DNA of 64,000 bases from assembly GCA_011319805.1 (NCBI GenBank), contig SJRY01000258.1:186001-250000 (forward strand), read 5' to 3'. Below, in pieces: positions 10,385 to 17,118 of this stretch. The DNA comes from Macrocybe gigantea. Lineage: Eukaryota > Basidiomycota > Agaricomycetes > Agaricales > Callistosporiaceae. Position 1 is the first letter of the stretch. Every line of letters starts with the position of its first letter. The notes beneath the pieces are model-generated. The model saw nothing but the letters and a program-made list of their open reading frames with translations, had not been told where the DNA came from and did not search any database. A program made the position numbers and the translations under genes.

Positions 10385-12943
10385 ATGGGCTCCACAGAGA
10401 AATCAGATCAGTTTGAGGAGGAAAGACGAGACCTGAATCTGGTCAACAATGTACAAGCCAGGTCCGAGCCCACATTTTCCAAAAATCGCCGCATCGTCCT
10501 CAGGAGACGCACATGATCTCTGTCTTCAGGATTCAGAACCCTCTTCATGGTATCCCACGGGACAAATTGACAGCACGCGCAGAGAATTTCGCACAGAACA
10601 ACGGTTTAGGCCATCTTTCATCGGTATTCAAGAAAGCTGCATTGCTCGCTCAGTCGCCAAAGGACTTTGAATCCATTCCCGAGCTTGACGAGGCGGACAA
10701 AGCCGTCATCAGGCGTGAAACGACGAGTGAGCAGTGACGAGCACATTCGCTTAAAAAAGCTTTCATTGACATCATCATCAATTTGTGATCAATCTGTAGA
10801 CAGGTGGTCACAACCGGGAGCTCTGTACCTGACCGTCATCGTGTGCTCGCTCGCTGCTGCCGTACAGTTGAGATTATATTTCGCCATTTGTTTATTTCGT
10901 CAATTCATCATTCTCCTAGGGGATGGGATCAAACTGGCTCCAATGGCGCGAACTTGTCTTTCCCGCAGGAGTTCCACATCGACAACAAGCCTGGTACTCC
11001 CAACGCGCAAACTAACGAATGGATCGTTGGAATGATCAACTCTGGGTATAGTTGTTTGCGTTATCATTATGGCCTCAGTTTTTCCCTTACTAGATCTCTC
11101 CAAAAACCAGGCCATATATCGCTTCATGTTTGCTCGGCTGCTGGCTCACGGATCCTCTCAATCACTACCTTGGCCGTCGCGGAACGTTGTTCTTCTGCGG
11201 AATTTTCTGCATCGTCAGTGTCATCGGTCAAGGATTGGCTCAAACATGGCCGCAGCTCTTCGTCTGTATCTCTTTTTGCGTCCCCGCCGTAATTGTCTTT
11301 GACATTCATCACCTGAAAAGGTCTGTCGTCTTCTATTGGGTCTCGGCATGGGTCCAAAAGCTACTACATCACCCGTCTTTGCGGCTGAGAATGTTCCTGC
11401 CAATATTCGTGGAGGTCTGGTCATGTCATGGCAGATGTGGGCAAGTACCAGTCGTTTTGACCTGCTAGGTTGTCACTGATCAGGATCACGCCTCTAGACT
11501 GCTTTCGGGATCTTCCTCGGGTTCACGGCGAACCTCATCCTGTTCCAAATAGGTCCCATAGCATGGCGCCTGCAACTTGGCTCGGCTTTCCTCCCCGCCG
11601 TGCCTCTCACAGCTTTAATCTACTTCTGCCCAGGTAAAGTTGATATCCCCTGCCTTTCATCTTCTATGCAATGGCTGATCTAAGGTCGTCAATCTCAGAA
11701 TCACCTCGTTGGCTGATGAAGAAAGGCCGCTATCCTGAAGCCTTCCGATCCTTCCAGCGCCTGCGGAACAGCGATCTCCAGGCCGCACGCGACATGTTCT
11801 ATGTACACTGCCAGCTGGAGGAGGAATTCGCTGTCCTCAAGGGATCCACCTACATCAGCCGCTTCTTCGAGCTCTTCACGATTCCCCGAGTCCGACGCGC
11901 GACGCTGGCCAGCTTCGTCGTTATGATCGCCCAGCAGATGTGTGGAATCAACATTATTGCATTCTATTCATCTACCATCTTTGTCGAAGCTGGATACAGC
12001 ACGAAGCAGGCCTTGTTGGCCTCATGGGGATTTGGTCTCGTCAACTGGGCTTTCGCTTTCCCTGCTGTTTGGGTATGCATACCACGTGTCCCGCTTTGAC
12101 GTCTCATGCCAACATTGTCTCTCCTGCCTTTGTAGACTATCGACACCTTCGGTCGCCGAAACCTACTCCTCTTCACGTTCCCAAACATGGCCTGGACCTT
12201 GCTGGCTGCTGGGTTCTGTTTCTTCATTAACGGCACAGTCCCGCCAAGGTGCCTCTTATTGCCTTGTTCATCTTCCTTTTCGCCGGTGAGCACAACGTCC
12301 TTCTCTACACTTCACGGCCATACCCATCACCATTTTTTGGTCCCAGCTTTCTACTCCCCGGGTGAAGGACCCGTGCCATTCACCTACTCCGCCGAAGTGT
12401 TCCCGCTGACCCACAGAGAGATGGGCATGTACGTTAGTTCAATATCTGTGCTGTTCGTACCTGCTCATGATGTTTCTAGGTCCTGGGCTGTGGCTACCTG
12501 CCTGTTCTGGGCCTCTGTACTTTCACTGACCTTCCCTCGTATGCTCTCCGCATTCAGCCCGCAAGGAGGTACGGTGCCCGACCTAGATCAATCTATCATG
12601 TGCTGACTTTGCTTAATATAGCTTTCGGCTTCTACGCTGGTTTGAACGTTGTGGCTTTGTTTATGATCTTCTTCCTGATGCCTGGTTTGTCGCTTAAACG
12701 AATGGGTCCGGGAACCTAGTACTGACTAGTTCGTTGACAGAAACCAAACAACGGACCCTGGAAGAACTTGACTATGTCTTCGCTGTCCCGACATCCAAGC
12801 ATATGTCTTACCAGCTCAAGACCTTCTTGCCGTATTGGGTCCGCAAATGGATATTCTTCCAAAGGGACGCCGTCCTAGAGCCCTTATACAACTTTGATGA
12901 AGTCGAGTCAATCACCGTGTTCGAGAAGGGCGTCGGCCATTAG
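10385..12943 (+). CDS. MFS sugar transporter (hexose/disaccharide permease type)
   Basis: A plasma-membrane proton/sugar symporter of the sugar porter family. Thirteen exons: 10385-10461, 10530-10726, 10800-10866, 10920-11045, 11111-11261, 11321-11440, 11498-11633, 11699-12072, 12136-12285, 12347-12428, 12480-12568, 12622-12684, 12741-12943. Family signatures are [15 protein letters not shown] after helix 1, [33 protein letters not shown] in the central loop, and [15 protein letters not shown] after helix 12. Exon lengths sum to 1835 nt, one short of a multiple of three. The frame changes near 12237, between FFINGT and [14 protein letters not shown], so one base is missing. Corrected length is about 611 residues. 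The intron at 11441-11497 has a GC donor (GCAAGT). The N terminus resembles lactose/maltose-type fungal permeases, but the substrate cannot be fixed from sequence. Confidence 0.9.
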
Positions 12944-13339
12944 AGTGGGAGGCTGTGAAAAATGCGTCTTTTGACGATTATTGAAAATACGAAAAGTTGA
13001 ACCATTGAGCGTCGATCACTCGGATGATGGTTCAGGTCTATGACCCGAACGCGTTTCCTTAACTTCTTTCGTGTAATTTATGACGCTGTACCAAGAATCT
13101 ACTCATTCAAACTTGAAATGACATTCTATTGCGTGTCCAATTCGGCTGAGACTTAATTGCGACATCAGCCGGTTGCAACAGAGTGGATGTTCAGGTGTAA
13201 AATAAGCATATCCTTTTAACCAATTTTCGGCGAAAAAAAAAGATCAGTCTTGGAGTATCATATAACAGTGACCATTCCTCAAAGTGTTCTTCGGCAAATG
13301 CGTATTTTATACAGGAAAATCTGAGCCAACGACATCCAG

Positions 13340-13800
13340 GCCCGAATGTACATCTACCTGTAGAAGTCAGCCTTCTTGGGTTCGACTCCCCAAGATGTAG
13401 TACTTTGCGTTCTTTCGGCCCTATCTTCGGAGACGACCGACTGAAGCAGTACCGCTTGGGGCTCTACGCCCTGCGCACAAATCTTGGTATGCAAAAGTCC
13501 TGCTTGCCAGGCCGTCGGTCGGTGTCGGGCTTACACGCTCACATCCGATGTCTGTTGGGCACTGGGATAGGTGGCATCCCACCCAATAGAGACCGCCACC
13601 CACACTATACACCTATCTCCAGTGGTCAAGGACTCTGCAGCGGTCGGCAGTGGCCCGAGTCCGGACTCCATTGGATACATCCAAAAGTAGGTAGTACCCT
13701 AAAGATTCGCACCGACGGTTAGGGCAGCGGTTAAGCCCTCTGATGAGCCCCTTCGCACGGGCGAAACCGTCATAGTCCGGCCGACTTGCCGAGTGGAATA
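13340..13800 (+). other. GC-rich, highly structured non-coding segment containing a hammerhead ribozyme
   Basis: This block is visibly richer in G+C than the AT-rich flanks and is dense in inverted repeats. They include CTTGGG..CCCAAG around 13375-13395 enclosing GTTCGACTC, an exact match to a pol III box B. An 8-bp pair, GATAGGTG (13566-13573) with CACCTATC (13610-13617), and a 12-bp palindrome, GAGTCCGGACTC (13657-13668), follow. The hammerhead ribozyme lies at 13714-13771. No splice-consistent protein is seen. The block sits between the sugar transporter and TYS1, and the ribozyme ends 285 nt before the TYS1 start codon. It may be a solo copy of a small ribozyme-bearing mobile element, or part of a long TYS1 leader. 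Boundaries are estimates. Confidence 0.55.
13714..13771 (+). ncRNA. Type III hammerhead self-cleaving ribozyme
   Basis: All core elements are present in order. Stem III 5' strand GACGGU is 13714-13719, with the cleavage site after U13720 (GUU, an allowed NUH triplet). Stem I AGGGC/GCCCU (13721-13725 with 13735-13739) has a 9-nt loop. The core CUGAUGA is 13740-13746. Stem II GCCC/GGGC (13747-13750 with 13759-13762) has an 8-nt loop, then GAAA at 13763-13766 and the stem III 3' strand CCGUC at 13767-13771. A1.1-U2.1, G10.1-C11.1 and A15.1-U16.1 pair as required. Stems I and II are closed, which makes it type III. Natural H17 is usually C or A, so U may mean slower cleavage. Type III hammerheads are known from viroid-like RNAs and plant retrozymes; in this fungal context its host RNA is unknown. 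Confidence 0.9.
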
Positions 13801-14055
13801 CGTTGTGGTTCCTCAGTGGTTGTCAGATGACAGAGACTACGTCATTTACAGGACTACCTTACGTAATTCAACCCGGACCAGATAAGATCCAGTATTTGCA
13901 TCTAAAGGATTTGCAAAATATCACCACGATCTCGATCGCCAATTTTTATCTGTGACTCACCTTTTGCTGTCCTTTTCCATTTCCTGGGCTCGTCAGCATT
14001 TCGCTGGTCTTATAGAACTTGGCCGCTCTTTTTATCTCGAAATACCCCTCGCACC

Positions 14056-15713
14056 ATGACCACTCTCGAAGAGAAGTATGATCTTATCACGCGGAGGTTG
14101 CAGGAGGTCCTGGGCAGCGACTCAATTAAGGCCATCTTAACAGAGGGCAGGACGTTAAAAGGCTATTGGGGTATTGTCCTCCTTTCATCCTTTGCATGTA
14201 TTGTTTCGTACTTGTCTCAACGCCAAACGGACAGGAACTGCACCCACCGGCCGACGTATGTTTTCTTAACCGATCCCGACCTGGAAGCCCCTGATTTGAC
14301 AAACTTTGTTATCCAGCCCACATAGGGTACTATGTCCCTTTGACGAAGATTGCAGATTTTTTGAGAGCAGGCGTGGAAGTAAGTTATTCCATTTTCTATC
14401 TGGTTGAATGGTGCAGCCAACTCAATTCTCAATTTCCAGATGAAAATTCTGCTAGCAGGTTGTGTTCATGCCACGATAAAATATAACTAGACTAACCAGC
14501 GCTTTTAAAGATCTTCATGCATTTTTAGATAACCTTAAAGCACCTCTGGAGCTTGTGACACACCGAACAAATTACTACAAGCACGTCCTTTTGGCCGTAT
14601 TCAGATCTCTTGGCATCCCAACATCAAAACTCATCTTCGTCGAAGGCTCATCTTACCAGCTATCAAAAGAATACAATCTAGACAATTACAAGCTTTGCAC
14701 CACAGTCACTGAGCACGATGCCAAGAAGGCAGGCGCGGAAGTCGTGAAACAAGTGGAAAGCCCGCTTCTGAGCGGCCTGTTATACCCTGGACTTCAAGCT
14801 CTTGATGAGCAATACTTGGGGGTGGATTTCCAATTTGGCGGTGTAGATCAGGTGAGTGGTCGTGGTGTCATCTGTGCTTGCGTTGAACTCATGACGACTT
14901 TCAGCGGAAAATTTTCACCATGGCAGAGCTCTACCTGCCACGCATAGGCTATGCTAAGCGCGCCCACCTTATGAACGCGATGGTTCCTGGTCTTTCAGGC
15001 GGCAAAATGTCGTCCTCGGACCCCAACTCCAAAATCGACTTTTTGGACTCGCCCGAACAAGTGCGCAAGAAGATCAAGGCCGCGTTTTGCGAGGAAGGGA
15101 ATGTGGAGGATAACGGGGCTTTTATTCGTCCAGTCTGTGCTCATTCCGATCAGCCAGCTGCGAATCAGTAGACTCAAGGGCGATGCGGCGCTTGAACCTT
15201 TTGCTGAGGGCGAGGAAGAGAGCCACAAGCCGTTTGTGGCGGAGGGCGCACCTGAAGGCACCCTTTTTTCGATTGAGCGGGACGCCAAGTTTGGCGGATC
15301 GCTACATTACGCTTCGTTCGAGGAGCTGAAGAACGATTTCGCGTCAAAGACGCTACACCCGAAGGATCTGAAGACGGCGGTCGCTAATGCTATTGTTAGC
15401 CTCCTCGAGCCTGTGCAGAAGGCATTCAAGGAGAACGAGGAGTGGCAGAAGGTCGAGAAACTGGCCTATCCGGATCCCAATGCAAAACCAGAAAAGAAAA
15501 AGAAGAAGGTCCGTGATATCATGTTTCGCTTGTGGACTTTCACCTAGAATGTATATCTTTGCACAGGAGAAGGTCTACCACCCACCACCCCCGGGAAAGG
15601 GTAGAAATGCGAGAGTTGCAGCTGATCAAGTGGACGGTACAGTGACTGCTGCTACCCCAGCGGCTCCACCCATTGCGAACGAGTCCGTAAAACCACCACA
15701 AGAATCGGCGTAG
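14056..15713 (+). CDS. TYS1: Cytosolic tyrosyl-tRNA synthetase
   Basis: Class I aminoacyl-tRNA synthetase that charges tRNA-Tyr. Seven exons: 14056-14170, 14235-14255, 14317-14378, 14440-14458, 14511-14851, 14905-15508, 15567-15713; exons 2 and 4 are only 21 and 19 nt. The HIGH-class motif is split by introns (GRPHIGYYVP), and the KMSKS-class loop reads [13 protein letters not shown], as in eukaryotic TyrRS. Exons sum to 1309 nt, one too many: GGGG at 15115-15118 should be GGG, which turns EDNG-A-FIRP into [16 protein letters not shown]. Corrected length is 435 residues. The C terminus carries a Lys-rich stretch and a [11 protein letters not shown] tail with no EMAP-type domain. The start at 14056 ([10 protein letters not shown]) follows a CACC context. 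Confidence 0.96.
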
Positions 15714-17118
15714 GCCTGTAGCCATATATCCTGTGATTGTTTGCTGTCCATCTGGTGTATTTTTGTTTTCATTACTTGCATTCTAGTCCTTATTTCCGAC
15801 CAGCACTTGGTAACAGATGACGCTTAGTTTGGAACAGTGGAGGGAGGGCTGAGAGGCATTTAGGCTATATTCAAGTCTTACTGTTATGGATTTGCTGAAA
15901 GAACGTCATGAATGACGTCCCGGGTGGGCGAATAGGTCTTCAGTACAAATGTGACTTTCACACGTACGCTTTCGCCGACTGGGCTGGCCACCCGTTGATA
16001 GCTCTCTGGGCTTCGTCAGCGAAGATGCCAGGAGGCATACCGACGATCGGCATTCACATCTTCAAGTCTTTCTAGCCACAAGCAGCTTGATATCCGATCC
16101 CATTTCTGAATGACTATTCGTGCTCTCATTTGTCAACAACTGTAGACGTCCATTGAAAATGGTGATGGAGTCTGGACCCATTTTTTCCCAAAAGAGGACA
16201 GGTTCTGGATTTTATCACGTGCCTAGATGCCTTCTAAGATGGTCGCCTTCGCGCACCCTGGCTGGCACTCAGTTGTCGACGTCGTGTATAAAGTAGGTCA
16301 TTGATTGATATATATATGTATTTAATACAAAGTTAATCGTGAACTCAAGAACACCATGCAAAACTGGATAACATCCGACTTGACTCTGGTAAAGTCACAA
16401 AGCAAATACATTCTCGGCTGATGCCTCGGTGATGAGCGATGCAAGGACGACCTTGGTAAGAGTCGACACGACGCCTTGGTAATTAAATGGCAAAATCCGT
16501 CATAATCGTAATGACTGGTAGATCCGGCTAGACCGACCTCGATATTACAACTGTTCAAAATCTTTATATTTGTGCAACTCTAGGTTACGACTCATGCTTG
16601 CCCAGATTATATAATACACTGCCAGAGAATAAGAGAACCAAAGCCAAAGAAAAATACACCCAAGACGTAATAGTGTATGAGACATGCCAGACAATGAATT
16701 ACATTACTTCGGATCAGTTCCCGTAGTCGCACAGCTTTGAATGTAGCTGTGCAATGCCGCTTGGTCGTGAGAAGTCTAACCATTGCCCCGTGTGCTGGAT
16801 GGTGATACTCCCTGGGGATGAGGGTAGAGGGGTGGGTGCGTCTGTACATGGTTGGGGATTGGGAAGGAGACGGAGATCGAGTAAGATTGCGCCCTACAAG
16901 GCCGTTATGGCGTTGACGTCTTCCGTCGCATTGTTCAGGTTCGAGGCCGATGCCGGCAGAGCGGGTACGCGCTACGGTGATGGCGACGCGTCGGACCAGC
17001 CCGCGAGATAAATAATGCCATAGGACGGACCCACGCTTGATTCTCTCACTTTCCTCGCTATCTTTACCACCGTTCGTTCATGCGAAATTCCACTTCTATC
17101 TTGTTTCGGTGGTGATGG
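15714..17118. other. Intergenic, nothing supported
   Basis: AT-rich sequence with only short unsupported frames. The 3' side (about 16,600-16,850, minus strand) has a frame ending in a hydrophobic stretch, but with no recognisable domain and no link to a gene. Confidence 0.45.

Follow-up and report, generated by a model that had tools for sequence, protein, structure and literature searches.

Retrozymes have been described from plants, as LTR elements with type III hammerheads (PMC4918200), and from animals, as tandem units with type I hammerheads (PMC7229834), to go by the accessible parts of both papers. In the plant elements, two LTRs of 300–400 bp each carry a hammerhead; there is also a PBS together with a PPT, and the target-site duplications measure 4 bp, as laid out in the available text of PMC4918200. 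The metazoan non-LTR retrozymes are presented, in the accessible sections of PMC7229834 and PMC7761336, as short noncoding one-hammerhead units that lack LTRs and presumably borrow their reverse transcriptase. Among fungi, Helenus TRIMs are short and bear A and B boxes like those of tRNAs. They are found in Agaricomycetes among others and possess two LTRs, a PBS, a PPT and 5-bp duplications, and in the accessible text of PMC10886601 the word hammerhead appears only within the reference list. Hammerheads also occur in telomeric Penelope-like Terminons, as far as the available text of PMC6431247 goes. In the open literature, with subscription papers and preprints lying outside it and fungal Penelope-like cases possible, no report was found of a hammerhead with a SINE in basidiomycetes or of type III hammerheads or retrozymes in fungal genomes; a search there for a hammerhead combined with a tRNA-derived SINE returned nothing related. 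In animals, the satellite-like Sm-alpha repeat of Schistosoma, which is short and has a Pol III promoter, carries a type I hammerhead. Yarrowia lipolytica is an ascomycete yeast. Its hammerheads, like the one examined here, are fungal and tied to an interspersed repeat family (PMC3088659), for which the accessible part of that paper sets out neither the anatomy of an element nor a tRNA module nor a circular permutation.

The window, that is, the whole 64,000-nucleotide stretch of DNA analysed here, contains a hammerhead motif with the following parts:

13714–13771, + strand: type III hammerhead ribozyme (motif), recognized by its core, three helices, RF00008 match, and the conservation and compensatory changes of its relatives
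13714–13719, + strand: helix III, 5′ strand GACGGU, with U16.1 at 13719, from its position in the motif; pairs with ACCGUC at 13766–13771
13720–13721, + strand: predicted cleavage site, after U17 at 13720, from its place within the motif
13721–13739, + strand: helix I hairpin AGGGC/GCCCU (13721–13725/13735–13739) with loop AGCGGUUAA; overlaps the A-box-like TAGGGCAGCGG
13740–13746, + strand: core CUGAUGA, from the motif and the RF00008 alignment
13747–13762, + strand: helix II hairpin GCCC/GGGC (13747–13750/13759–13762); two of four pairs show a compensatory change in L012
13763–13771, + strand: core GAAA at 13763–13766 (A15.1 at 13766) and helix III 3′ strand, from their position in the motif

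All hammerhead core bases are present, the three stems are perfect and helix III is open; sequence and coordinates are exactly those given in the preliminary description, whose identification of a complete type III motif is borne out by the conservation and compensatory changes among relatives. Its view that chance is a very unlikely origin also held: a 28-base core pattern, allowing up to three mismatches, occurs at seven places genome-wide and its reversed control at none, which argues against chance. The Rfam model RF00008 aligned at 13714–13771 over positions 1–54 of 54, scoring 40 bits (E 2.1e-6 for a 4-kb stretch and 5.1e-6 for the 41-Mb genome). A type III covariance search had been named beforehand as the check, with a score under threshold to count against the motif, and taken to the letter the outcome went against it: the match is full length, but it and that of the L009 copy (42 bits) fall below the curated cut-off of 48.5 bits, and a scan of the whole window at gathering thresholds gave no Rfam match. 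Because this cut-off is a library setting that lies outside the definition of the ribozyme, and because the other evidence outweighs it, we do not regard the score as decisive. Across the seven loci of the repeat described below, cmscan (E up to 1) reported a hammerhead in L009 alone, although four others carry the 58 letters of the window unchanged, and a genome-wide RF00008 search, in which 67 of 9057 candidates were scored, matched two of the seven copies. Since R1, a model built from the hammerhead sites of the repeat family, scores all eight of them, these misses are taken as filter limits.

The minimum free energy structure of the isolated 58-mer comprises the three hammerhead helices and one extra U–A pair beside the cleavage site (−21.5 kcal/mol; strict hammerhead fold, −20.3 kcal/mol), and self-cleavage after 13720 is predicted. 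Within 86 nt of context another fold is predicted as the minimum, with a stability like that of shuffled sequences (z −0.73). A contact between loops I and II, GCG/CGC, is kept in L008 and lost in L009 and L012, and is not claimed. The minus strand of 12000–16000 yielded no second hammerhead and no other ribozyme at E up to 1. Type I hammerheads gave no match at E 0.1, which is no proof of absence since the type I family matched no control genome either. At 13296–13351 on the + strand, the C/D-box RNA model sR38 scored 18 bits where its cut-off is 50, a weak match most likely due to chance.

The preliminary description treated the 58 nt as an intergenic hammerhead; the motif is there, but it does not stand alone. 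It terminates a repeat some 400 bp long that is scattered through the genome in seven copies, L005–L011. The window copy is organized as follows:

13374–13782, + strand: dispersed noncoding repeat copy, 409 bp; seven copies in the genome with unrelated flanks, the next G (13783) being common to six of seven
13396–13713, + strand: variable noncoding body, about 75–76% identical between L005–L007 and L010–L011
13772–13783, + strand: repeat 3′ end ATAGTCCGGCC and the shared G, the place where a circle would open; 3′ end common to all seven copies, with run-on into the unit start

A search with 13200–14050 recovered the window copy, six more copies and a short eighth match in the genome, and a search with a copy from the other subfamily recovered the identical set of sites. 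Aligned with their flanks, which are unrelated, the copies share the 3′ end in seven of seven cases and the 5′ end in six, the first 23 bases being unmatched in L009. Units measure 397–421 bp at 50–60% GC, and the window copy is noncoding, its longest stop-free stretch reaching 115 codons. Two subfamilies were recognized, L010 and L011 against the other five (bodies 71–76% identical between them). The bodies of L010 and L011 agree in 254 of 255 columns, so copying was probably recent. L008 and L009 have lost CpG strongly, with a gain of TpG/CpA (observed/expected CpG 0.28 and 0.46, respectively, against 0.79–1.01 in the other five), as if they were old methylated copies. Neither the exact ribozyme string nor the T-arm hairpin described below had a match in prokaryote contigs.

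The window copy is flanked on one side by a gene for a sugar transporter and on the other by one for tyrosyl-tRNA synthetase. About 275 bp (13783–14057) separate it from the ATG at 14058, taken as the start of the synthetase gene, and read-through of the hammerhead could affect this leader. The earlier label "basidiomycete" fits, with light support: of the matches to a fragment of the synthetase, 120 of 202 being listed, the sole one named by organism was Favolaschia claudopus, at 60% identity. A longer element common to the copies was considered and rejected. When the 10-kb surroundings of eight loci were compared, L003, L036 and L038 shared segments besides the repeat and the other five shared none at the threshold used. 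These segments (L003:5785–6012, L036:8720–9899 and several in L038) are found no more than about 5 kb from a repeat copy, in three of the seven cases, and one in L038 adjoins a Copia-type reverse transcriptase frame (RVT_2, L038:789–2384). A tRNA-like gene of unclear anticodon (RF00005, 49.4 bits) at L006:2025–2105 on the − strand is situated about 110 bp upstream of that repeat copy in the same orientation; around the other copies, ARAGORN found no tRNA within the 10-kb regions examined.

The ribozyme is better conserved than the body. Between L005, L006 and L007 on the one side and L010 and L011 on the other, all 58 positions are identical while the bodies are 75–76% identical; both subfamilies thus contribute to the five copies, out of seven, that have the complete motif unchanged, with 52/58 positions kept in L008 and 55/58 in L009. 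The eighth site, L012, retains the ribozyme region alone, within other flanks and with compensatory change affecting two of its stems, and a search with its 700-bp surroundings matched only that region elsewhere. Over the eight sites, 98.3% of alignment cells pair and 5 of 15 pairs show double changes, a result reached by none of 500 shuffles; with the structure slid along the alignment, at most one pair did so. The double change in L009 may stem from two CpG decays. In L012, by contrast, two helix II pairs are altered by transversions, C to A and G to T, and CpG decay cannot explain such changes. In L008, helices III and I each contain a single broken pair. The solitary hammerhead of L012 (L012:1485–1573, + strand) differs in the letters of helices II and III; by our reading, A replaces the core G12, so this hammerhead is probably dead. 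The string TGGCGCAGCGG, located in L012 immediately 5′ of the cleavage site, matches the A-box consensus TRGCNNAGYGG in full.

Turning to the ends of the repeat, two stretches resemble tRNA:

13374–13395, + strand: T-arm hairpin at the 5′ end, TCTTGGGTTCGACTCCCCAAGA, in which GGTTCGACTCC at 13379–13389 is a perfect B box, from identity to tRNA L064 and the B-box pattern
13712–13736, + strand: stretch like the 5′ half (D-arm) of tRNA L064; 36 of 2000 shuffles score as high, so suggestive only

The first 19 bases of the repeat equal the T-arm of L064, a tRNA of this genome, but for one inserted base, a match seen in none of 300 letter shuffles; the comparison covered 50 sequences (35 distinct) out of 63 tRNA matches in the genome. 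From its anticodon loop we read L064 as tRNA-Ile(AAU). At up to three mismatches, six T-arm hairpins are listed genome-wide, all at 5′ ends of the repeat, and the B box, judged by the consensus, is perfect in five of seven copies. At the other end, the A-box-like TAGGGCAGCGG (13720–13730) spans the cleavage site and reaches into helix I; it occurs in five of the seven copies and agrees at 10 of 11 positions with the A-box consensus TRGCNNAGYGG. The D-arm likeness to L064 is no more than suggestive: its register varies among copies, L007 and L010 aligning in another one. The 69-nt ribozyme end is no closer to the tRNAs of the genome than shuffles are (103 of 300), and the joined module as a whole gains nothing in score over its T-arm, with 4 of 200 shuffles scoring as high. 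A tRNA cloverleaf was rejected, ARAGORN finding none in the joined module or the repeat loci save the separate tRNA near L006.

A tRNA-type Pol III promoter requires an A box before a B box. With the B box at its 5′ end and the A-like box at its 3′ end, a linear copy presents them in the reverse of this order; on a circle or in a tandem array they read A, then B. Compared as closed circles, L005 and L010 agree in 81% of 415 columns, and their longest identical run measures 91 nt, reached in none of 5000 column shuffles. This run begins with helix III, crosses the 3′ end and stops at the last base of the 5′ hairpin; in the linear copies it is split into 69 + 22 nt. Because the tRNA piece and the hammerhead meet only in a ring or a head-to-tail array, the repeat likely spreads via circular RNA, a cycle with precedents in plants and animals. 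Conservation of the two ends could instead reflect the needs of insertion. An exact head-to-tail junction pattern had no match in the assembly and no tandem copy was found, so the source locus is not seen.

Beyond the 3′ end GGCC, the copies L005–L011 continue into the unit start GTCTT by 1, 5, 3, 4, 0, 1 and 1 nt, respectively, a sum reached by 2 of 20,000 random-position sets (P = 0.002 with the first G assigned to the element) in a test devised after the flanks had been seen; on the 5′ side, six copies continue by 0, 1, 0, 1, 2 and 1 nt. These continuations suggest that insertion drew on a circular or tandem RNA exceeding one unit in length, with either run-on of the reverse transcriptase or pairing of target bases with the template. 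Among the flanks of the seven copies, no consistent target-site duplication was detected and none flush with both ends. Direct repeats of five bases do overlap the unit's own end bases in L006 (GTCTT) and L009 (GCCAT); the former is read as run-on, and both could be taken for short duplications. Some matches of 5–6 bases occur away from the repeat ends in L006, L007, L010 and L011. These two direct repeats, the common 3′ end of all seven copies and the 5′ end common to six would also suit solo remains of a two-unit, LTR-like hammerhead dimer collapsed by recombination in the manner of solo LTRs. In its favour, plant retrozymes are dimers with many solo LTRs in the accessible account of PMC4918200, and Helenus elements have tRNA-like LTRs in that of PMC10886601. 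We judge this history quite unlikely, as neither a two-unit copy nor an internal domain was found in the genome, a consistent duplication of 4–5 bp is absent at the ends and the 3′ ends continue variably into the next unit.

A viroid-like rod was considered and rejected: in the three of seven copies folded as circles, z values against 60 shuffles each were −1.9, −1.9 and −0.2. Conserved structure in the body was likewise too weak to retain, with double changes in 6 of 118 predicted pairs and a covariation term of −0.57. The copies might nevertheless be DNA fossils of a fungal viroid-like circular RNA that replicates on its own, captured repeatedly by a cellular reverse transcriptase and lacking a genomic source locus. 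Trichoderma is infected by a viroid-like hammerhead RNA, according to the accessible part of PMC13343976, and ring-opened monomers with no source copy seen in the assembly and no consistent duplications also speak for such fossils. This origin is nonetheless distinctly improbable: the T-arm matches a host tRNA gene, the minus strand between 12000 and 16000 holds no ribozyme at E up to 1, two exact ribozyme strings found no match in viral contigs and the circle is not clearly rod-like. That the hammerhead is a decayed or non-functional relic within an ordinary inactive short interspersed repeat accords with the sub-threshold RF00008 score, the two broken pairs of L008, the core change of L012 and the different fold in wider context, but is highly improbable given the identical complete motif in five of seven copies of both subfamilies and the compensatory changes.

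The window repeat is one of seven dispersed noncoding copies of about 400 bp, with a 3′ hammerhead motif and, in six, a tRNA-like T-arm at the 5′ end, and we consider it likely that the repeat spreads as hammerhead-cut circular RNA copied into DNA; the best reading of the family is a fungal tRNA-headed retrozyme. In such a cycle, RNA longer than one unit would be transcribed, probably by RNA polymerase III from the head-to-tail A-box/B-box module, and the multimeric RNA would cut itself at each hammerhead. The linear unit, bearing a 5′-OH and a 2′,3′-cyclic phosphate, would be closed into a circle of about 410 nt, probably by tRNA ligase, which the accessible text of PMC7229834 gives as the closing enzyme, covering the plant case too. 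The closed junction would read ...GTCCGGCC-G-TCTTGGG... (GGCC-GTCTTGG). A reverse transcriptase borrowed from another element—of a kind available in the genome, which has 150 RVT_1 matches—would start beside the T-arm and make about one turn round the circle, and the resulting ring-opened, unit-length DNA would be inserted at a break without a regular target-site duplication.

Possibly, the reproducing form itself is a fungal RNA ring of about 410 nt derived from a tRNA-Ile gene, with Pol III promoter and hammerhead fused within the 91 nt, and the genomic monomers are DNA imprints of a replicon between retrotransposon and viroid. We hold this to be unlikely; were it so, the copies, whose promoter is split in the ring-opened monomers, could not drive their own transcription and would have to descend from the circle.

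Set beside the known systems, the repeat agrees with the broad definition of a retrozyme in being a noncoding dispersed unit with a hammerhead. As a tRNA-headed retrozyme, the family would extend this class to a third kingdom, combining a type III hammerhead with a tRNA-derived promoter element in ring-opened monomers. Such a promoter–ribozyme fusion would be without counterpart in the compared literature, as far as the accessible texts extend, and would allow a direct test of how host genes give rise to self-cutting circular RNAs, which is also asked about viroids and their origin. In contrast to a viroid-like replicon existing only as RNA, it is present in seven DNA copies. Its T-arm is tRNA-derived, as in tRNA-derived SINEs, but its 5′ end lacks the A-then-B order of SINEs, and no consistent target-site duplication was found. 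Single units and no consistent duplication also separate it from the Helenus TRIMs, with their two LTRs and 5-bp duplications. Metazoan retrozymes resemble it in their short noncoding one-hammerhead units, in having no LTRs and in the presumed use of a borrowed reverse transcriptase, but they are of type I, tandem and below 50% GC in the accessible accounts (PMC7229834, PMC7761336), whereas the fungal repeat is of type III, occurs as dispersed monomers and has 50–60% GC. With the plant LTR retrozymes of PMC4918200 it shares, as far as the available text goes, a noncoding, non-autonomous unit of several hundred bases with a type III hammerhead, and a circular RNA intermediate that is demonstrated there and would be expected here. 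It differs from them in having single units where they have an internal region with a hammerhead-bearing direct repeat on either side, no internal part seen in which a PBS and a PPT could lie, no consistent duplication in place of the 4-bp target-site duplication, and a tRNA-derived T-arm that joins the ribozyme on the circle. We file the family as one that keeps the logic of retrozymes and differs from them in architecture.
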